Shown: positions 3,415-23,006 of the stretch, piece by piece
How positions within the stretch are numbered: position 1 is the stretch's first letter
Layout of the letters: every line of letters begins with the position of its first letter
Assembly: GCA_004138175.2 (NCBI GenBank)
Contig: RYFE02000003.1
Span: forward strand, 1 to 64,000
From: Chloroflexales bacterium ZM16-3
Lineage (GTDB): Bacteria; Chloroflexota; Chloroflexia; Chloroflexales; Chloroflexaceae
Reading direction: 5' to 3'
Length of the DNA: 64,000 bases
Position numbers and translations under genes: made by a program
The notes under the pieces: model-generated
What the model saw: only the letters and a program-made list of their open reading frames with translations
What the model was told of the DNA's origin: nothing
Databases searched by the model: none

Positions 3415-4350
3415 ATGGTGAGACATTTTCTCTCTGTGACTGATCTGAGCCGGGCTGAGGCAGATGCGCTGCTCGACCGGGCCGCAGCCCTCAAGGCGGA
3501 GTGGCACGCTGGCGGTAAGGGCGTCCACCCTGGGCTGCCGATGCAGGGGAAGACCCTGGCGCTGGTGTTCGAGAAGCCCTCGCTGCGCACGCGTGTGGCC
3601 TTCGAGGCCGGTGTCACCCAGCTCGGCGGGCACCCGAGCTACCTCTCGGCAAATGACATCGACATGGGCGGGCGCGAGAGCGTGCCCGATGTGGCCCGCA
3701 ACCTGAGCCGCTGGGTGCAGGTGATCGCCGCCCGTGTCTTTAAGCGCAGCACCGTCGAGACCCTGGCCCGCTACGCCACCGTGCCGGTGATCAACGCCCT
3801 CTGCGATGTGGAGCACCCCTGCCAGGCGCTGGCCGATATGCTCACCTTGCGCGAGCGCTTCGGGCGCACCCAGGGTTTGAAGCTGGCCTATGTGGGCGAC
3901 GGCAACAATGTCTGCAACTCGCTGATGCTGCTCGGCGCGACCCTCGGCGTGAGCGTGGCGGTGGCCTCGCCGCCCGACTACCGGCCCGACCCGGAGTTCG
4001 TCGCGCGGGCCGAGGCGCTGGCCGCCAACAACGACGCCACGATCACGATCACCACGGCGCCGGGCGAGGCGGTTGCTGGCGCAGATGCCGTTTATACTGA
4101 TGTGTGGACATCGATGGGCCAGGAGCACGAGTCGTCTCGCCGCCGCCCCGTCTTCCAGCCCTACCAGGTTGATGCGGCCCTGCTGGCCCAGGCCGACCCA
4201 CGCGCGGTGGCGATGCACTGTCTGCCGGCCCACCGTGGCGAAGAGGTGACGGCCGAGGTGATCGATGGCCCCCGCTCGGTGATCTTCGAGCAGGCGGAGA
4301 ACCGGCTGCATGTCCAGAAGGCTCTTGTGCTGACGCTTCTAGAATTGTAG
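3415..4350 (+). CDS. argF: Ornithine carbamoyltransferase
   Basis: 311 residues. Cytosolic enzyme joining ornithine and carbamoyl phosphate to citrulline in arginine synthesis. The carbamoyl-phosphate loop FEKPSLRTR (residues 52-60) has SLRTR in place of the common STRTR. HPCQALADM and the ornithine-site HCLPAHRGEE are intact. Start ATG 3415 (or GTG 3418) gives MVRHFLSVTDLS, the usual N-terminus; the open frame back to 3355 runs through a hairpin and is rejected. argD lies far away near 61 kb, so the pathway is dispersed. Confidence 0.96.
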   Translation: MVRHFLSVTDLSRAEADALLDRAAALKAEWHAGGKGVHPGLPMQGKTLALVFEKPSLRTRVAFEAGVTQLGGHPSYLSANDIDMGGRESVPDVARNLSRWVQVIAARVFKRSTVETLARYATVPVINALCDVEHPCQALADMLTLRERFGRTQGLKLAYVGDGNNVCNSLMLLGATLGVSVAVASPPDYRPDPEFVARAEALAANNDATITITTAPGEAVAGADAVYTDVWTSMGQEHESSRRRPVFQPYQVDAALLAQADPRAVAMHCLPAHRGEEVTAEVIDGPRSVIFEQAENRLHVQKALVLTLLEL

Positions 4351-4356
4351 ATCGAA

Positions 4357-4401
4357 GGGGAGGGTTCACGGGAGGGCCAGGCCCTCCCGTGAACCCTCCC
4401 C
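4357..4401. terminator. Perfect 22-bp palindrome with 1-nt loop
   Basis: Arms 4357-4378 and 4380-4401 pair without mismatch around a single A. It follows the argF stop by 6 bp and precedes the TPR gene start by 14 bp. There is no U-tract, so it may act as a terminator, processing site or leader structure for the TPR gene. Confidence 0.6.
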
Positions 4402-4415
4402 GGATAACAAACGCT

Positions 4416-7400
4416 ATGGCAGGAAATCGCGCAATCTTCGAGCGAGCGATGGAGCAGAGCCGCGAGGCCGCACGCGGCGGGCGTTGGGATGACTCTCTCA
4501 AGAGTGCGATTCGCGCGCTCCAGGAGTTCTCCCAGGATACCGATGCCCGTATCGCCGCTGCTGTGGCCCTGTTCAACACTGGTAAGCTCGACCGGGCTCT
4601 CCAGATCTTTGAGGATCTGCGCGCGTCGGATCGGAACAACCCGTTCTTCTTGAGCTATATAGCCCAGTGCAATAGCCGCCAGGGGAACGTGTCCGCCGCA
4701 GTGGAGAGCTACCGTAGCCTGGCGGAGTTGCACATAAGCCAGCGTCGGCCCGCCCAGGCCGTCGAGCCGATGCGCGATCTGCTGGCCCTGCGGCCCGAGA
4801 TGGACGATCAGCGGCGACGCCTGGCACAGCTCTATGAGGATCTTGGCGCTGTCCGCGAGGCGGCTAACGAGCACCTGAACCTGGCCCGTCGCCTCTATGA
4901 TGCCCAGAAGTTCGATGCGGCCGCCGAGACCGCTGAGATAGCGCTGCGCCTCGAACCGAACTTCCGCGAGGCGAAGGATCTGATCGTCACCCTGCGCGAT
5001 GCGATGTCCCGCGCTGCTGGCATCCAGCCCGCGGCGCCTGCCGCCCCCGGCAGCGGCGATCTGCGGGTTAGCATGGGCGGGATGACCGGTGCCCTTCGCT
5101 CGCAGCAGTTCCAGATCGAGAAGCTGATCGAGCAGGCGATCAAGAAGCAGGAGGCCGGCGACTCCAACGGCGCGGCGGATCTGTACGAGCAGGCGGTCGA
5201 GGCCGGGCTTGAGCGGGCCGATGTGCTCTACTCGCTCGGCCTGATCTACCAGGAGCGGGGCGACCACCGGGCCGCCGTGGGTGTGCTCAACCGGGCCGCC
5301 TCCGACGCCGAGTACGCCCTCTCGTCGCACTTCGCCCTTGGCCAGAGCCACCGCGAGCTTGGCCAGTTGCCCCAGGCCGCCCAGGAGTTCGAGCAGACAA
5401 TTGAACTGGTTGACCTCTCCTCAATCGGGCGCTCCGAGGCCGACGACCTGATCAACATGTATGAGTCGGCGGCGACGATCTACTCCGAGATCGGCGATAT
5501 CGCCCGCGCCGCCGCCCTCTACTCCACCCTTAGCTCGTTCCTGGAGACGAAGCGCTGGGGCCGCGACCGGGCCGCCGAGTTTAAGAGCCGCGCCAAGGAG
5601 CTCTCTGAGCGCAATATGTTCGCCAAGCTGCGCACGCTTGGCACCGGCAGCCTGAGCCCGCAGTCTGAGCCGGACGCGGTCTTGCCGCCAGAAGAGGTGA
5701 TGCCGGAGAGCTGGGGTAAGATCCGGCCGATCACCGACTTTCTACGTAGCGACCGGCCGGCCACCACGTCGGGACTCAAGGCCCAGCCTGAGCCGAAGCC
5801 GATCTCCGAGCCGCTGTTGATCCTGGAGACGATGCCGACGGCGATCGAGCCGCGCTTTGCGCCGACTACCCCGATCGACACGACCGGCCTCGACCCTGAG
5901 ACTGAGGGCTGGGTTACCCTTAGCGGGAAGTACCTTGACCAGGGGCTGATCGAGGCGTCGCTGGACGCGTGCCTAGAGACGATCCGAGTGAATGTGGACT
6001 ATCTGCCCATTCATTTGCGCATGGGTGAGATCTACGAGCGCCAGGGCCGACCCGAGGAGGCGGTATCCAAGTATCAGCTGCTGATCGACACCTACCGGGT
6101 GCGTAATGAGCCCGAGAAGGCGATCGATGTCTACTTCCGCTTTATCGATCTGTCGCCTGACACGATCAACGCCCGCTCACGCCTCGCTGAGATCCTGAAG
6201 AATGCGGGCCGGGTTGACGAGGCGGTCGAGCAGTCTATCCATGTCGCCAACAACTACTACCGCCTCGGCCAGAGCAATAAGGCGCTAGAGGAGTATCGTC
6301 GCCTGCTCCAGTGGGCGCCGAAGAACCGCGATGTACACACTCAGTATGGGCTGGCGCTGCTCAAGCTGGAGCGATTCGAGGCCGCCCTCGGCGAGTTCCG
6401 CAAATCTATGGAGCTGGGCAGCCCCGACGACCTGGTCGCAATCTCTCGGCTGAATATCACGCTGGCCCTGATGGGCGACCAGCCCGCCGATGTGTGGGAC
6501 TCGCTGGCCACCCTGCTCGATCAGATCAAGCAGCGCCCCCAGGAGTTTAGCCATGTGCAGTCGGAGTATCGCTCGGCCCTGCTGATCTCCGACGCCAGCG
6601 TTCTGCACTATATCCTGGCGATCATTCAGCAGCAGTCTGGCCAGCACGGCTCAGCCCTGGCGGAGCTTGAGCAGGCCCAGGCGATGCTTGAAAGTGACGT
6701 TGACCCGCTGCTCCACCCGGTGCTGATCTATCAGGCCGCCGCAGATAGCTACATCGCTATGGGCAAAGCCGAGGAGGCGCTGGCCCAGCTGCACAAGGGG
6801 CAGGCGGTGGCCGGGCGCAGCCCCGCCGACCCGAATATTAAGCACGCCTTCGCCGTGCCCCTGGCCAAGGGCGAGCTGGCCCGGCGCATGGCCGAGGCAT
6901 ACGCCGCCACCGACGACCTTGCTGGCGCAGAGCAGGCCCTCGTCGAGGCCAAAAAGCTCGTCCCCTACGACCGAGCGATCCACACGAAGCTGGCCGATGT
7001 CTACTTCCGCCAGGGCAAGCTCGGCGAGGCGCTGGCCCAGCTAGAGGAGCTGGCCACCTATTACGAGGAGCGTCAGCAGCTTGACCGGGCGATTGAGATG
7101 CTGGAGTACGCCCTGAAGCTGGCGCCGAACCATATCCCGATCAGCAGTCGGCTGGCGCGCATGCAGCTGCGTCGCGGCTACCTCGATAAGGGCGTGGACG
7201 GGCTGATGCGCGCCGCCGAGCTCCAGCGCAAGGCTGGCCAGCTGAAGGACGCCGTCGCCTCGCTCCAAGAGGCCGCCCAGGTTCACTGGATGATGAGCGA
7301 GCACGAGAAGGCTCGCCATGTGTACGACAAGATCGTCCAGATCGCGCCAAATGATATTGAGGCCCGCCAGTGGCTGGCTCTGATGCACACGCTGGCCCGG

Positions 7401-16801: not shown

Positions 16802-19372
16802 CTACTCCTTCCAGGTCGGCCCCGGCAGGTGATCGTCGCGGAGCAGGTGCTCGAAGAGCACCTGCGGCAGCGGCTCGCTGTAGAAGTAGCCCTGGATCAT
16901 GTCGCAGCCAGCGCTGTGCAGAAAGTCGCGCTGCGTAACCGTCTCCACACCCTCGGCCACAACACGCATGCCGAGCTGGTGGGCCAGGTTCATGATCGCG
17001 TTAATGATCGCCCGCCCGCTGTCATCGCGCTCTGTGCCGATGTCGAAGACAAAGGAGCGGTCGATCTTCAGGATGCTGATCGGCAGGCGCCGCAGGTAGG
17101 CCAGGGACGAGTAGCCCGTGCCGAAGTCGTCGATGGCCAGGGTGAGACCGATGTCACATAGCTTGTTAAGCATCTGGGCGACGCTGGACTGGTCGCCGAT
17201 CAACATGCTCTCGGTCAGCTCAAGCACGATCAGGCTCGGGTCGAGGCCGCTCTCGGCCACGATGGCGCTCAGGCTCTCGACAAAGTCAGGCTGCGAGAAC
17301 TGGATGATCGAGACATTCGCCGATATGAAGAGGGGCCGGTCGGGGCGCTGCCAGCGCCGCGCCTGGCGGAAGGCGTTGGCCATGCACCAGGCGTTGAAGG
17401 GGATGATCAGGCCGAGATCCTCGGCGAGCGGGATGAAACGGCTCGGCGGGATGATGCCCATGTCCGGGTGCTTCCAGCGCAGCAGCGACTCCATCCCCAC
17501 GATGCGGCCAGATCGGTCCACCTTGGGCTGGTAATAGGTGTCAAGCTCGTTGCGCTCTAGGGCACGGCGCAGGTAGTTCTCCAGGCGCAGGTGCTCCAGG
17601 GCGGTGCGATTCGTGGCCGAGTCGAAGAACTGGAAGCTGTTGCGCATCGTGCTCTTGGCGCGATACATCGCCACGTCGGCGCAGCGCTGGAGGCTATCGG
17701 CGTCCTCGCCGTCGGCGGGGTACATGCTTGCGCCGATGCTGGCGCTGACGAAGAGCTCGTTGCCGGCAATATGGAATGGCGGGTGGAGCAGCTCGTGGAG
17801 GCGGTGTGCCACCTTCGACACCTGTAGTGATCCGGTGATCTCGGTGAGCACCATCATAAACTCATCGCCGCCGCGGCGGGCAATCGTGTCGGCGCTGCGG
17901 ACGTAGCTCTCGAAGCGGCGGGCCAGCTGGATGAGCAGCGCGTCGCCGATGGTGTGGCCGAGCGTGTCGTTGATCTGCTTGAAGCGGTCGAGGTCGATGA
18001 ACAGCACGGCGATCATCCGGCCAGAGCGGCGGGTGGCCTCGATCGCCTGGTGCAGGCGCTCCTCGAAGAGCAGCCGGTTCGGCAGTCCGGTCAGGGCATC
18101 GTGGTGGGCCTGATAGGCCATCTGGCGCGTGTGCTCCTGCTGCTCCAGGGCGATCATCAGTAGCTGCTCGGCCAGCTCGATCACCTGGGTGTCATCCGCC
18201 CCTATGTGGGTGATCTCATGATGCGCGAGTACCAGGACGCCATCGACCTGGCCGGTGTGGGTGCGGATTGGCGCGATCCAGCAGTCTGCCACGCCGATGT
18301 CGGCGACAATCGCATTGATCTCGGCCCAGCGCGCATTGCCGGGCAGGTAGCGTTCGATTTTCCTGTGGCTTAGGCTATCACCGACGCGTGCGCGCGCCCA
18401 CACCTCCAGTTGCTCCAGCATATCGGCGGAGAGATCGGGGCTGGCGATGTGCTGCACCGGAGCCTCGGAGAACACTAGCGCCATGTAGATCATGCCGGGG
18501 TAGCGATGGGAGATCATCGTGAGAATCTGCTGGCTCACCACGTCGATCTTCTGGCTGCGGGCCACCAGTTCAAGCACCTGCCGACGCTCGTTGCTGAGGA
18601 TCTCGGCCTGCATGCGGCGGGTAATGTCCTCGTGGGCTGCCACCACGCGAACATGCTCGTCATCGCCGAAGCGGGTGACGCGGAGTGTGAACCACATCTG
18701 ACGATCCCGGAAGTGACAGGGGTAGTCTAGGTGGAAGTGCGTCTGCGTGCCTGCGATCACCGCGCGGATGCCAGCCGCCGCCGCGTGGGCGATGAGCGCG
18801 TCCTCGCCCTCGGATACGGCGTCACAGACGGACAGGTAGTTGTAGCCCACGCCGCTGCTGTAGGGGTTGTGGCCTGCGCTGCGGGCAAACGCCTGCCAGG
18901 CGTGGTTCACCGCCATAATCGTGCCTGCACCGTCGAGGATGGCGATATGGGCCGAGAGGGCGTCGAGCGTCGAGCGGAGGAACTGCTGCGACTCGATCAG
19001 CAGCTGCTCGGTGCGCTTGCGCTCGGTAATATCGTAGAGGGTCGCCAGGAAGGCGGGTCCGCCTTCCAGCGTGATCGACTGGATGTGCATCGCCACCATG
19101 ACCACGCTGCCGCTAGGGCGGATGATCTCTAGGTCAGTCGTCTCATGGGTGACAATAGGGAAGCCAAAGGTGAAACCGACGAGATGATCGCGGCTGCGCC
19201 CGAACAGTGCCTCTGCGGCGGGGTTGGCGAAGCGCACAATGCCGTCTGAGTCGAGAACCAGAAGCGAGTCGTCACTCTGCGTGGTGATTGCACGGAGGAC
19301 AGCGCTTTCATCAATAGGAGTTTCATTAAGTGGGACGATCTGGTTTGTAATACTTGAATAGCCCTCTTTCAT
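16802..19372 (-). CDS. PAS-PAS-GAF-GGDEF-EAL c-di-GMP signalling protein
   Basis: 856 residues. PAS1 (about 20-115), PAS2 (about 130-250, with YPCH and WFTLRV), GAF-like (about 262-412), GGDEF (about 420-580) and EAL (about 598-850). GGDEF is intact at 501-505 with an inhibitory-site RSAD at 492-495. The EAL motif reads ESL (628-630), but DDFGTGYSSLAYL, KIDRSF and AEGVET are kept. Thus it can plausibly make and perhaps degrade c-di-GMP. ATG 19372 has GGAG 7 bases upstream. It lies downstream of kaiC on the same strand, separated by repeat B, and shares its two-PAS module with the gene that heads the locus. Confidence 0.92.
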   Translation of the reverse strand: MKEGYSSITNQIVPLNETPIDESAVLRAITTQSDDSLLVLDSDGIVRFANPAAEALFGRSRDHLVGFTFGFPIVTHETTDLEIIRPSGSVVMVAMHIQSITLEGGPAFLATLYDITERKRTEQLLIESQQFLRSTLDALSAHIAILDGAGTIMAVNHAWQAFARSAGHNPYSSGVGYNYLSVCDAVSEGEDALIAHAAAAGIRAVIAGTQTHFHLDYPCHFRDRQMWFTLRVTRFGDDEHVRVVAAHEDITRRMQAEILSNERRQVLELVARSQKIDVVSQQILTMISHRYPGMIYMALVFSEAPVQHIASPDLSADMLEQLEVWARARVGDSLSHRKIERYLPGNARWAEINAIVADIGVADCWIAPIRTHTGQVDGVLVLAHHEITHIGADDTQVIELAEQLLMIALEQQEHTRQMAYQAHHDALTGLPNRLLFEERLHQAIEATRRSGRMIAVLFIDLDRFKQINDTLGHTIGDALLIQLARRFESYVRSADTIARRGGDEFMMVLTEITGSLQVSKVAHRLHELLHPPFHIAGNELFVSASIGASMYPADGEDADSLQRCADVAMYRAKSTMRNSFQFFDSATNRTALEHLRLENYLRRALERNELDTYYQPKVDRSGRIVGMESLLRWKHPDMGIIPPSRFIPLAEDLGLIIPFNAWCMANAFRQARRWQRPDRPLFISANVSIIQFSQPDFVESLSAIVAESGLDPSLIVLELTESMLIGDQSSVAQMLNKLCDIGLTLAIDDFGTGYSSLAYLRRLPISILKIDRSFVFDIGTERDDSGRAIINAIMNLAHQLGMRVVAEGVETVTQRDFLHSAGCDMIQGYFYSEPLPQVLFEHLLRDDHLPGPTWKE

Positions 19373-19642: not shown

Positions 19643-21172
19643 TCAGCTCCCGGCATCATCTTTGAACAGGTTGCCGAGGCGCTCGATCTCGCTTGGGGCG
19701 GTATGGATGAATTGCCCGGAGAGAATGCCTGAGATCGTGCGAAAGGGCTTGCCAATATGCAGGCCGTGGCCGTCGATCATGAACTCACGAATCTCTTTAT
19801 CGTGAGCTGATCCGCGCATCTTCAGCACCGTCAGGCCGCGGCGCATCTCGCCGAAGAGCTCGACGTAGCGCATAAGAATGATCGAGTCGGTGATCGTCGA
19901 GATATGTGCCTCAGTGATCGAGGTGCCGCCCAGCAGCGTCGGCGTGGTGGAGGTGAACAGCCCGACCACCTCTTGGTGCTTGATGAACGAGGTCAGCCCG
20001 ATCACAAACTCGCGGAAGCCCTTCATCGTCGAGACCCGCTCAAGGGCCGAGAGGCTATCGATCGCCACGCGCTGCGGTCGGAAGGTCTCGATCTCCTTCT
20101 TCATGAGGATCAGCTGATCTTCCAGGCTGGCCGACTCGGGGTAGTTGCAGATAACCCGCATCTGGCCGGTGGACTCATACTCCTCAAAGTCGAACCCCCA
20201 GCCCGTCGCGTTGCGGAAGAGCTGGTCGCGGCTCTCCTCAAAGGCGAAGAGCAGCACGCGCTCGCCCTGGGCCGCCCCCGAGGCCAGGAAGGTCGTGGCC
20301 ATGAGCGTTTTGCCGGTGCCGGTCGCCCCCGACACAAGGATGACCGAGTCGCGGAAGAATCCGCCGCCGCACATATGGTCGATGTCCGAGTTGCCAGATT
20401 GCATGCGCAGGTTCGAGGAGCGCTGCTTGAGCTCGATCGCCGAGAGCGGGATGACAACCACCCCCTCGCCGGGGATGACGGTGAAGGGGAAGCTGCCCTT
20501 CTGGTGCGAGGTGCCGCGAAACTTGAGAATCTCGATCGTGCGTCGGCGCTTCTCCTCCTCGATCGGGTTGCGCAGGATCACCACATCATCGGTGACAAAC
20601 TCCTCCACGCCGTAGCGCCCGATCTCGCCATACTCCTGGGTGCGCTCAGCGGTGAGGATGGCCGTCACCCCCATGCGGCGCATTGCGGCGACGATCCGCA
20701 GCAGCTCGCTACGGATCATCTGGCTATTCTCCATACGCGCAAAGATCGCCCCCAGCGAGTCGAGGACAACCCGGACGGCGCCCACCCGCGCCACGGCATA
20801 GGTGATGCGGGACAGCAGGCCGCCCAGATCGTACGCGCCGCGCACGATCTCCTCGGACTCGGGCTGCGGCGACACATCGACGAAGGCCCACTTGTTCTGC
20901 GCCTCCCAGGCGGCGATATCCCAGCCGAAGCCGACCATATTGCGCCGTAGGGCGTCGGGCGACTCCTCGAAGGTGATGAAGACGCCAGACTCGTTGAACT
21001 GCTGGATGCCCGCAGCGAGGAACTGCGTGGCAAAGACCGTCTTCGCGCTGCCGGCGGTTCCCGAGACGAGCGTGGTGCGGCCGCGCGGCAGCCCGCCGTT
21101 GGCGATGTGGTCGAACCCTGTGATGCCAGTGGGAAGCTTGGCGATAGGAAATGTCGAGGTTGATACTGTCAT
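19643..21172 (-). CDS. kaiC: Circadian clock ATPase/autokinase KaiC
   Basis: 509 residues, two RecA-like halves as in cyanobacterial KaiC (519). CI: P-loop GTAGSAKT (38-45) and FEES (68-71). CII: GATGTGKT (282-289) and FEES (311-314). The phosphorylation segment SITEAHISTITDSIILMRYVE places Ser425/Thr426 at the positions of Ser431/Thr432 of Synechococcus KaiC, and Thr420 at Thr426. The tail PFRTISGILSG resembles the KaiA-binding A-loop. ATG 21172 is used. It follows kaiB by 226 bp on the same strand. Genuine KaiC rather than a distant RadA/KaiC-like ATPase, judging by the CII phospho-segment and tail. Confidence 0.95.
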   Translation of the reverse strand: MTVSTSTFPIAKLPTGITGFDHIANGGLPRGRTTLVSGTAGSAKTVFATQFLAAGIQQFNESGVFITFEESPDALRRNMVGFGWDIAAWEAQNKWAFVDVSPQPESEEIVRGAYDLGGLLSRITYAVARVGAVRVVLDSLGAIFARMENSQMIRSELLRIVAAMRRMGVTAILTAERTQEYGEIGRYGVEEFVTDDVVILRNPIEEEKRRRTIEILKFRGTSHQKGSFPFTVIPGEGVVVIPLSAIELKQRSSNLRMQSGNSDIDHMCGGGFFRDSVILVSGATGTGKTLMATTFLASGAAQGERVLLFAFEESRDQLFRNATGWGFDFEEYESTGQMRVICNYPESASLEDQLILMKKEIETFRPQRVAIDSLSALERVSTMKGFREFVIGLTSFIKHQEVVGLFTSTTPTLLGGTSITEAHISTITDSIILMRYVELFGEMRRGLTVLKMRGSAHDKEIREFMIDGHGLHIGKPFRTISGILSGQFIHTAPSEIERLGNLFKDDAGS

Positions 21173-21398: not shown

Positions 21399-21686
21399 CT
21401 AGGACATAGACACAGGAGGAAGGTTCAATGCGGTGAGCAGCCCTTCAGTATCGGCGAGATCGCCAATGATTCGGCGCTGCGGCAGGGGCGACTCTTTGAT
21501 CAGTGTTGGTGTCGCAAAGATCTGACGCTCCTCGGCCTGCTGTGGATCGGTGATTACATCAATGATAACAAGCTCACACGGGTAGTCGCCGAGGCGATCC
21601 GTGATAAGCTGCTGCAACGTGGCGATGGCGCGCTCCGTACGCGGCGTGCGCCCGGCAATAAAAAGCTGAAGAACAATAGTGCTCAC
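21399..21686 (-). CDS. kaiB: Circadian clock protein KaiB
   Basis: 95 residues, thioredoxin-like KaiB fold. LQLFIAGRTPRTERAIATL, the acidic VIDVITDPQQAEE segment, FATPTLIKESPLPQRRIIGDL and the terminal LLTAL match KaiB closely, including the ATPTL and RRIIGDL signatures. Start is GTG 21686; no strong ribosome site is visible. KaiB binds the CI ring of phosphorylated KaiC and antagonises KaiA in cyanobacteria. It is 64 bp downstream of the PAS/KaiA-RsbU-fold gene and may also have its own promoter (21719-21747). Confidence 0.95.
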   Translation of the reverse strand: MSTIVLQLFIAGRTPRTERAIATLQQLITDRLGDYPCELVIIDVITDPQQAEERQIFATPTLIKESPLPQRRIIGDLADTEGLLTALNLPPVSMS

Positions 21687-21714
21687 GGATGTCAGCCTAT
21701 CACATTCATCGCGA

Positions 21715-21747
21715 GGTTATCATAACCGAATCTTGATGATATGCAAA
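21715..21747 (-). promoter_or_regulatory. Possible kaiB promoter with palindromic -10
   Basis: Minus strand: TTTGCA (21747-21742), 17-bp spacer, TATGAT (21724-21719). The -10 is the centre of a perfect palindrome GGTTATCATAACC (21715-21727), so a bound protein would block it. Confidence 0.45.
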
Positions 21748-21750
21748 TAT

Positions 21751-22947
21751 TCATAGCGTAACCTCATCACGATAGTATGCCACAAGATAGCCCATCAGCT
21801 GAAGCGCGAGAACTCTACCCTCCTCAAGGTATGCCTGCTGCCGCTCAAGCGAAGCACCAAAGCTTCGGCTACGCAGCGACGCCAGATGCATCTCGACCAC
21901 ATCGCGGGCTGCGGCGTGCTGTTGGCCCAGGTAGGTTGCCAGGGTGCGCGTGGGGAGATCAACATCGGGGACGAGCGCAAAGCCGCGCGCGTCGACGGCT
22001 TTCTCTAGTATATCGCTGTAGCGGTTGATACAGATCTGGAAGGTGTCGGGGTTATCTGTGCGCAGCGACGAGTCGGCGCGCTGCGGGCGGGCGATGGAGC
22101 GCGCGCGCTGCGCGCTCGATATCGCGCTGACGGCGAGCAGCTCGCGCTCGCGAGCCTGGAGCTGCTCGCGCAGTGTCTCGGCCTCGGCGATGGCCCAGGC
22201 GTGACGCCGCTGCTCGGTAATATCTGTGTGCGAGATCACGAGGCCGCGCCGCTGGCCGTAGAGCGGCACCGCTCGCATATGGAACCAGCGCTCTGTATCG
22301 GGGCTGTTGCACGGATACTCCAGCTCGAAGATGGGCAGATCGCCGTGCAGGACACGGCGCATCCCATCCAGCACCGTGGGCACCTCCACCGACTCATCGC
22401 TTGAGGATGTGGCGCAGATAGAAAAGTAGTTCGCGCCCACGCCAGTGGTGAGCAGCTGAGGGTCGCCATTCTCGACTGCAAACTGACGCCAAGCGTCATT
22501 CGCCATAACAATGGTGCCGTTCTCATCGAGCACGGCAATATGATGCGAGAGCGAGTTGAGGATCGCCCGGCTAAAGCCCTCCGCGTCGCGCAGGGTCTCC
22601 TGGATGCGGTGCTGCTCCGTCAGGTCGCGCAGCACGATCAGCTGCGCTGGCGCGCCCATCCATGTGATGGATGCCGCCCGCATCTCGGCCGCGATCAGCG
22701 CGCCGTTCGCCTGGAGCAGGCTGATCTCTGCCACCTCGCCAACCATAAAGGGCAGGCCAAACGGCTGCCCGAGCAGGTTGCTTGCCTTGCGGCGCAACAG
22801 AACCTCGGCGGTAGCGTTCACCACGCACACGCGGCCATCATCATCGACGATAATCATCCCGTCGAGGCTGGTATTCACCACTGCCTGAAGTCGGGCGTCC
22901 GCATCAGCATCGATAGCCGTCGGCGGCTGGTAGTTTGTTTCTTCCAT
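21751..22947 (-). CDS. PAS-PAS protein with KaiA/RsbU-type helical C-domain
   Basis: 398 residues from ATG 22947 (TTG 22953 would add two). PAS1 (about 18-115) and PAS2 (about 120-250; YPCNSPDTERWFHMR) are followed by a short coiled segment (about 250-275) and a helical domain (about 309-398). That domain, from RYSDILEKAV through VVEMHLASLRSRSF to LALQLMGYLVAYYRDEV, has the spacing of hydrophobic and Glu/His residues seen in the KaiA C-terminal domain and in the RsbU N-terminal domain, which share a fold. No kinase, phosphatase or GGDEF domain is present. Sitting first in a kaiB-kaiC locus, it is a candidate KaiA analogue carrying light, redox or metabolite sensing by PAS. Family assignment of the C-domain is by eye; an RsbU-like RsbT-binding role is the alternative. 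Confidence 0.72.
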   Translation of the reverse strand: MEETNYQPPTAIDADADARLQAVVNTSLDGMIIVDDDGRVCVVNATAEVLLRRKASNLLGQPFGLPFMVGEVAEISLLQANGALIAAEMRAASITWMGAPAQLIVLRDLTEQHRIQETLRDAEGFSRAILNSLSHHIAVLDENGTIVMANDAWRQFAVENGDPQLLTTGVGANYFSICATSSSDESVEVPTVLDGMRRVLHGDLPIFELEYPCNSPDTERWFHMRAVPLYGQRRGLVISHTDITEQRRHAWAIAEAETLREQLQARERELLAVSAISSAQRARSIARPQRADSSLRTDNPDTFQICINRYSDILEKAVDARGFALVPDVDLPTRTLATYLGQQHAAARDVVEMHLASLRSRSFGASLERQQAYLEEGRVLALQLMGYLVAYYRDEVTL

Positions 22948-23006
22948 TCGCAATTCTTTGTAGGGGCAGCGGGAACCGCCCAGCGCCGAAGATACGGAAT
23001 ATTACC

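Follow-up and report, generated by a model that had tools for sequence, protein, structure and literature searches.

Which protein, if any, takes the part of KaiA at a kaiB-kaiC locus outside cyanobacteria? We addressed this question in a stretch of 64,000 nucleotides from Chloroflexales bacterium ZM16-3 (hereafter the window), whose minus strand carries, in this order, a gene for a PAS-PAS-KaiA_C protein, kaiB, kaiC and a gene for a PAS-PAS-GGDEF-EAL protein. According to the original prediction, the gene just upstream of kaiB encodes two PAS domains and a helical end domain; the Pfam matches to PAS in this protein, with kaiB and kaiC on the same strand behind it, agree with this layout.

Gene order and domain architecture

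The first gene of the kai operon (21751..22947, minus strand) encodes the PAS-PAS-KaiA_C protein of 398 aa. Its ORF was listed with a TTG start at 22953, and the in-frame ATG at 22947, which gives the 398 aa, is the likelier start. The span 21399-22953 that had been assigned to the KaiA analogue does contain this gene and takes in kaiB as well (95 aa, GTG start, 21399..21686, minus strand), which was identified with PF07689 (E-value 4e-22) and also matched the NCBIfam KaiB models, below their cut-offs. The two-domain kaiC (509 aa, 19643..21172, minus strand) was detected above cut-off by NCBIfam circ_KaiC (616 bits) and PRK09302. The PAS-PAS-GGDEF-EAL gene, fourth in the row (16802..19372, minus strand) and annotated with Pfam, is a candidate output gene, and in many relatives it is found about 3 kb from the homologue of the first gene on the same contig. 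Its PAS pair aligned with the PAS pair of the PAS-PAS-KaiA_C protein at 35% identity (blastp, 264 aa, E-value 5e-41), so that both proteins probably respond to one type of signal. The joint presence of this gene and a KaiA-type gene with related PAS pairs suggests, at the level of sequence, that the Kai system is linked to cyclic-di-GMP.

A Pfam scan of the PAS-PAS-KaiA_C protein yielded two PAS domains (PAS_4, E-value 3.7e-13; PAS, E-value 3.1e-12). Domain 1 covers residues about 18-110 (22618..22896, minus strand; Pfam PAS/PAS_9, with strands at residues 30-108 in the AlphaFold model) and domain 2 residues about 130-248 (22204..22560, minus strand; PAS_4, conservation and the AlphaFold model), the latter with conserved cysteines in NYFxxC and YPC; the conserved cysteines of the PAS pair are C178 and C213. 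In the AlphaFold model they are followed by a long helix (residues 244-283; 22099..22218, minus strand), probably a coiled-coil signalling linker, and by a disordered hinge (residues 281-290) between this helix and the terminal bundle. As modelled, the tandem PAS, 40-residue helix, hinge and bundle have the anatomy of a dimeric sensor, and the tandem PAS of the full-length model showed structural likeness to DosP, PpsR and FixL. Heme and flavin were considered as cofactors of the PAS pair; inspection by eye revealed neither a LOV cysteine motif nor a histidine in the helix that usually binds heme, and we assign no ligand to the pair.

Fold and sequence relationships of the C-terminal domain

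The KaiA-type C-terminal bundle was delimited to residues 294-398 (21754..22068, minus strand) using the predicted structure, its structural matches, profile-profile comparison and a residue map. It had been described as a helical domain of some 90 residues; it is helical, with a true size of about 105 residues in four helices, and the landmarks RYSDIL, VVEMHLASL and LMGYLVAYYRDEV are all present. The AlphaFold model of this domain (pLDDT 95.7, pTM 0.87) was searched with Foldseek, for which the best match was the KaiA C-domain 1q6a (prob 0.99, TM 0.66, with a weak E-value of 0.2). Re-ranking with VIA placed KaiA C-domains at all of ranks 1-8, with 90-98 of 105 residues aligned, an rmsd of 2.4-2.8 and Z-scores of 10.9-11.9, all below the VIA caution level for helical bundles (Z about 13), so that we base the fold claim on fold, sequence register and linkage agreeing with one another. 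The list used for the fold search was without RsbU structures, and their absence from the top matches carries no weight. According to the model, the domain is a four-helix bundle with the fold of the KaiA C-domain.

Plain profiles did not detect this relationship. Pfam KaiA (PF07688) gave no match at cut-off in the protein, in its own genome or in 35 genomes, nor around the 'Obscuribacterium' locus (a locus that is not cyanobacterial); RsbU_N (PF08673) gave none in the protein at cut-off, and the last 100 residues matched no Pfam family above cut-off. That the PF07688 model misses the whole family would give one reason for the failure of KaiA searches outside cyanobacteria. The check that had been suggested with these two profiles was thus negative, and the relationship comes from profile-profile comparison and structure. 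The RsbU_N HMM produced sub-threshold matches to the C-domains of several relatives (E-values 0.007-0.8). Using hhalign, we then compared 59 C-domains with a KaiA profile built from two PDB sequences only, obtaining a score of 24.3 (maximum of 19.3 in 100 column shuffles), and with an RsbU_N profile of two sequences (B. subtilis and L137), obtaining 28.4 (reached by 0 of 100 shuffles). With eight bridging sequences from a Magnetococcales phylum search added, the KaiA score rose to 26.2 (null maximum 16.1). The hhalign probability was low (18-39%), in part because of the two-sequence KaiA profile; viral contigs and plasmids held no further KaiA sequences with which to deepen it. That scores unmatched by 100 shuffles each were obtained on both sides supports the predicted kinship of the domain with the KaiA C-domain and the RsbU N-terminal domain. 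A match of the C-domain alone to FIGL1_N (E-value 0.0004) and matches to apolipoprotein/SHERP were discarded as sub-threshold or generic helical matches.

To map residues, we combined the hhalign register with the residue table of PMC8113500 (Table 1) across the 59 C-domains. Among the KaiA dimer-interface positions, D260 is occupied by E (59/59), R262 by R (59/59), I269 by M (58/59), A270 by G (59/59), L272 by L (56/59), Y276 by Y (59/59) and R277 by R (58/59), and E274 is not kept; seven of the eight are therefore near-invariant, with identical or conservative residues. The equivalents of R262 and Y276 in the window protein are R378 and Y392. The position of H237 holds H in 51 of 59 domains and that of H271 mostly Tyr, His or Asn. 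At the KaiC-contact position D242, Arg or Lys is found in 45 of 59, and the contact positions M241 and I266 are mostly hydrophobic. Judged from these sequences, the dimer surface looks conserved in the family and the KaiC-contact surface looks changed, which leaves room for a different mode or sign of binding. The eight top KaiA matches of the predicted fold and the retained dimer-interface positions together bear out the description of this domain as KaiA-like.

Linkage to kaiB and kaiC

Full-length homologues of the PAS-PAS-KaiA_C protein were found in 27 of the 61 genomes searched (own genome included), with 37-66% identity when the window's own copy is left out. kaiB lies directly 3' of the homologue in 25 of these 27 genomes, and in the other two the contig ends there; chance is far from accounting for this recurrence. 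Across 301 Chloroflexota genomes, the C-domain was present in 23 and a canonical two-domain KaiC in 23, with both in 22, or 22 of the 24 genomes holding either (Fisher p about 4e-31, uncorrected for kinship); the genomes with both belong to five families. The gene is thus tied to kaiBC in related genomes, a point on which the original prediction had asked for a check. A REC-type paralogue in Chloroflexales, which carries the domain away from kaiBC, counts against the KaiA-type role proposed below. One genome (G126, locus L053) holds a PAS-PAS-KaiA_C protein without a close KaiC; this MAG may be incomplete or mixed.

A single scan of genome contigs for the C-domain yielded 68 loci, of which 53 have kaiB and/or kaiC directly downstream, in about ten phyla; the remainder are mainly the lone REC-type paralogue of Chloroflexales, plus contig ends. 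By record title, the loci come from Chloroflexota, Pseudomonadota, Acidobacteriota, Armatimonadota, Gemmatimonadota, Planctomycetota, Verrucomicrobiota, Spirochaetota, Nitrospirota and others, and because most are MAGs, single phylum placements may be binning errors. The N-termini of 56 representatives comprise a receiver (REC) in 31, the commonest form, and PAS in about 23; single forms are PAS alone, three PAS and MEDS-PAS-PAS, the last of these in a Spirochaetales locus (L096) ahead of the KaiA-type domain. At L083/L050, the gene in front of kaiB-kaiC encodes a KaiA-type protein with 180 N-terminal residues that are without Pfam match and GAF-like by eye. On a quick KaiC tree, the distribution of PAS versus REC amounts to five changes, with fewer forced by the well-supported branches alone; with moderate support (80, SH-aLRT only), the PAS-PAS form clusters in Chloroflexaceae/Oscillochloridaceae together with two Anaerolineae-type MAGs.

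In the Magnetococcales phylum search, we observed a second, diverged KaiA-type gene beside kaiB-kaiC (L181-L188). Its product has a first helix that is shorter and a DARL motif like that of KaiA, and the tail of the KaiC beside it is different (PSEVEQLGAMF). Several genomes from this search have both KaiA-type genes beside kaiB-kaiC, with differing KaiC tails.

Phosphosite and tail of the neighbouring KaiC

The KaiC of the window has two P-loop domains, a Ser-Thr phosphosite, an A-loop and a tail. Its closest solved relative is 8zn5, followed by cyanobacterial KaiC, and its nearest named relatives are from uncultured Oscillochloris, which puts the genome of the window among Oscillochloris-like Chloroflexales. 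The phosphosite was placed at Ser425-Thr426 (HISTITD; 19895..19900, minus strand), which we take to be the equivalent of the Ser431-Thr432 dual phosphosite of S. elongatus; a Ser-Thr (or Ser-Ser) dyad occurs in nearly all KaiCs linked to the domain. The A-loop and C-terminal tail, GILSGQFIHTAPSEIERLGNLFKDDAGS (residues 482-509; 19646..19729, minus strand), carry a tail motif and are the proposed docking site. This motif (E-hydrophobic-x-R-hydrophobic-x-x-[LMG]-[FVM]) is found in 47 of 50 linked KaiCs and in about 0.1% of shuffled tails; as it was drawn from the same tails, the count of 47/50 describes conservation and is no independent test. It also occurs in S. elongatus KaiC, whose tail we checked against PDB sequences. 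More distant KaiC paralogues end in coiled-coil or unrelated tails. In the sole Chloroflexota genome with KaiC only (G205), the KaiC (L161, 1486-3174, 55% identity) has a degraded C-terminal tail that has lost the motif, and no kaiB or KaiA-type gene was found in the 3.8 kb around it; G190, from the same genus, has the complete set of genes.

Proposed mechanism and alternative explanations

We consider it likely that the gene product is a dimeric, KaiA-type activator of KaiC, with a tandem PAS in place of the pseudo-receiver of KaiA or the receiver of KaiA3, which binds the KaiC tail and thereby promotes autophosphorylation; dimerisation, tail binding and the direction of the effect on phosphorylation are what we infer in this reading. 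The PAS pair would sense a cytoplasmic cue, such as a small molecule, oxygen or redox state, and the long helix would relay the signal to the four-helix bundle. A dimer of the bundle would then bind the neighbouring KaiC at its C-terminal tail and draw out the A-loop, the release of which would promote autophosphorylation at Ser425/Thr426, and KaiB on phosphorylated KaiC would in turn hold the KaiA-type protein off. The resulting system may be an oscillator or else a timer of the hourglass kind.

Other explanations give the bundle a different partner or none. RsbU_N binds RsbT, and an RsbU_N-like bundle could recruit a different kinase or switch protein, the proximity to kaiBC reflecting a shared signal only. 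Such a role would be consistent with the hhalign score for RsbU_N, which is slightly above that for KaiA, and with the sub-threshold RsbU_N matches; we nevertheless regard it as very unlikely, given that 22 of the 24 genomes with either the C-domain or KaiC have both, that the C-domain precedes kaiB in about ten phyla, and that it is not joined to a PP2C phosphatase. Alternatively, the domain might be a mere dimerisation or transmitter bundle of the PAS sensor that makes no direct contact with KaiC, its linkage to kaiBC being operon co-regulation. Helical bundles often serve dimerisation in PAS proteins, and the most conserved positions here are those of the dimer interface. However, the bundle occurs with REC, PAS or MEDS at the N-terminus, and with unassigned N-termini, and its kaiB-kaiC neighbours are constant throughout; Magnetococcia have a pair of diverged copies, both accompanied by kaiB-kaiC and by KaiC tails that differ. 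This makes the explanation very improbable in our view.

A KaiA-type fold with KaiC as its partner could also have another effect, in which the protein keeps KaiC dephosphorylated or targets the KaiB-KaiC CI complex (as CikA/SasA), and the PAS pair resets the clock instead of driving it. The charge reversal at the KaiC-contact position D242 means that binding may differ from that of KaiA, PAS domains are typical of input sensors, and synteny and co-occurrence fit any partner of KaiC or KaiB. We judge this version unlikely: KaiCs linked to the gene retain the tail motif and the KaiC that lacks the gene has a degraded one, an indication of tail binding, and the REC-bearing sister KaiA3 supports KaiC3 phosphorylation (PMC11372060).

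Relation to known systems and exchange of sensor domains

The premise that KaiA is largely cyanobacterial is out of date: KaiA3 (Synechocystis Sll0485), which consists of a receiver and a KaiA-type C-domain, is known from Roseiflexus, Chloroflexus and others and in vitro supports rhythmic phosphorylation of KaiC3 (PMC11372060). Regarding the predicted KaiA analogue with fused PAS, both the KaiA-type domain and the PAS part stand, and the protein belongs with the described KaiA3 group, the receiver being replaced by PAS. The two types share an N-terminal signalling domain joined to a KaiA-type C-domain, and in both the gene comes first in the row, followed by kaiB and in most cases kaiC, whereas KaiA3 has a NarL-type receiver and the window protein two PAS domains and a long helix; at its N-terminus, Pfam detected PAS-PAS and no NarL-type receiver with a phospho-Asp. 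With cyanobacterial KaiA, of which the N-terminal domains vary (Dvornyk and Mei 2021; PMC8113500), it has in common the four-helix C-domain fold, the dimer-interface positions and the operon order A-B-C, but it is without a pseudo-receiver, lies beyond the reach of PF07688 and keeps neither D242 nor E274. KaiA and RsbU share a fold (PMC11372060), and the window protein has detectable profile similarity to the RsbU N-terminal domain; unlike RsbU, it contains no PP2C phosphatase by Pfam, the bundle forming its C-terminus, and its partner by linkage is KaiC and not RsbT. PAS histidine kinases adjoin kaiBC in purple bacteria (PMC10931921), which likewise places a PAS sensor gene beside kaiBC, although the window protein joins PAS to a KaiA-type domain and has no kinase domain. 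We found no report of a PAS-KaiA fusion in open-licence papers, an earlier report elsewhere being possible, and the word 'PAS' is absent from the text of PMC11372060 and PMC8113500. A KaiA analogue with a receiver was already known outside cyanobacteria; the branch with fused PAS seems new, as does the wide range of sensors exchanged on one KaiA-type domain.

We lean towards the broader view that KaiA-type regulation of KaiC is a widespread modular device. In this view, a single C-domain, combined with a sensor that can be exchanged (receiver, pseudo-receiver, between one and three PAS, or MEDS-PAS-PAS), stands at the head of kaiBC operons across about ten phyla, and Chloroflexales would use a PAS pair, in place of a phosphorelay or a pseudo-receiver that binds quinone, to pass cell state directly to a three-protein KaiABC timer of anoxygenic phototrophs. 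If so, a non-cyanobacterial filamentous phototroph would have a complete three-part KaiABC-type system with the sensor fused to the activator, environmental input would be swappable on a conserved clock core, and one could test whether KaiABC-type oscillation predates cyanobacteria or extends beyond them.

Within Chloroflexus, the PAS-PAS type stands before kaiB in three loci (L115, L116, L119), and a lone REC-KaiA_C paralogue was observed away from kaiBC in three others (L107, L108, L112). Koebler et al. noted that Chloroflexus aggregans breaks KaiA3 synteny (PMC11372060); a REC type standing alone together with a PAS-PAS type before kaiB would explain this exception. The lone REC-KaiA_C paralogue was also seen in other Chloroflexales (L101, L102, L113, L114, L118, L122, L123), and several Chloroflexales with this paralogue also hold the PAS-PAS form before kaiB. 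The lone REC-KaiA_C gene of L108 is followed by a gene for a PAS-like protein (4269-5468).
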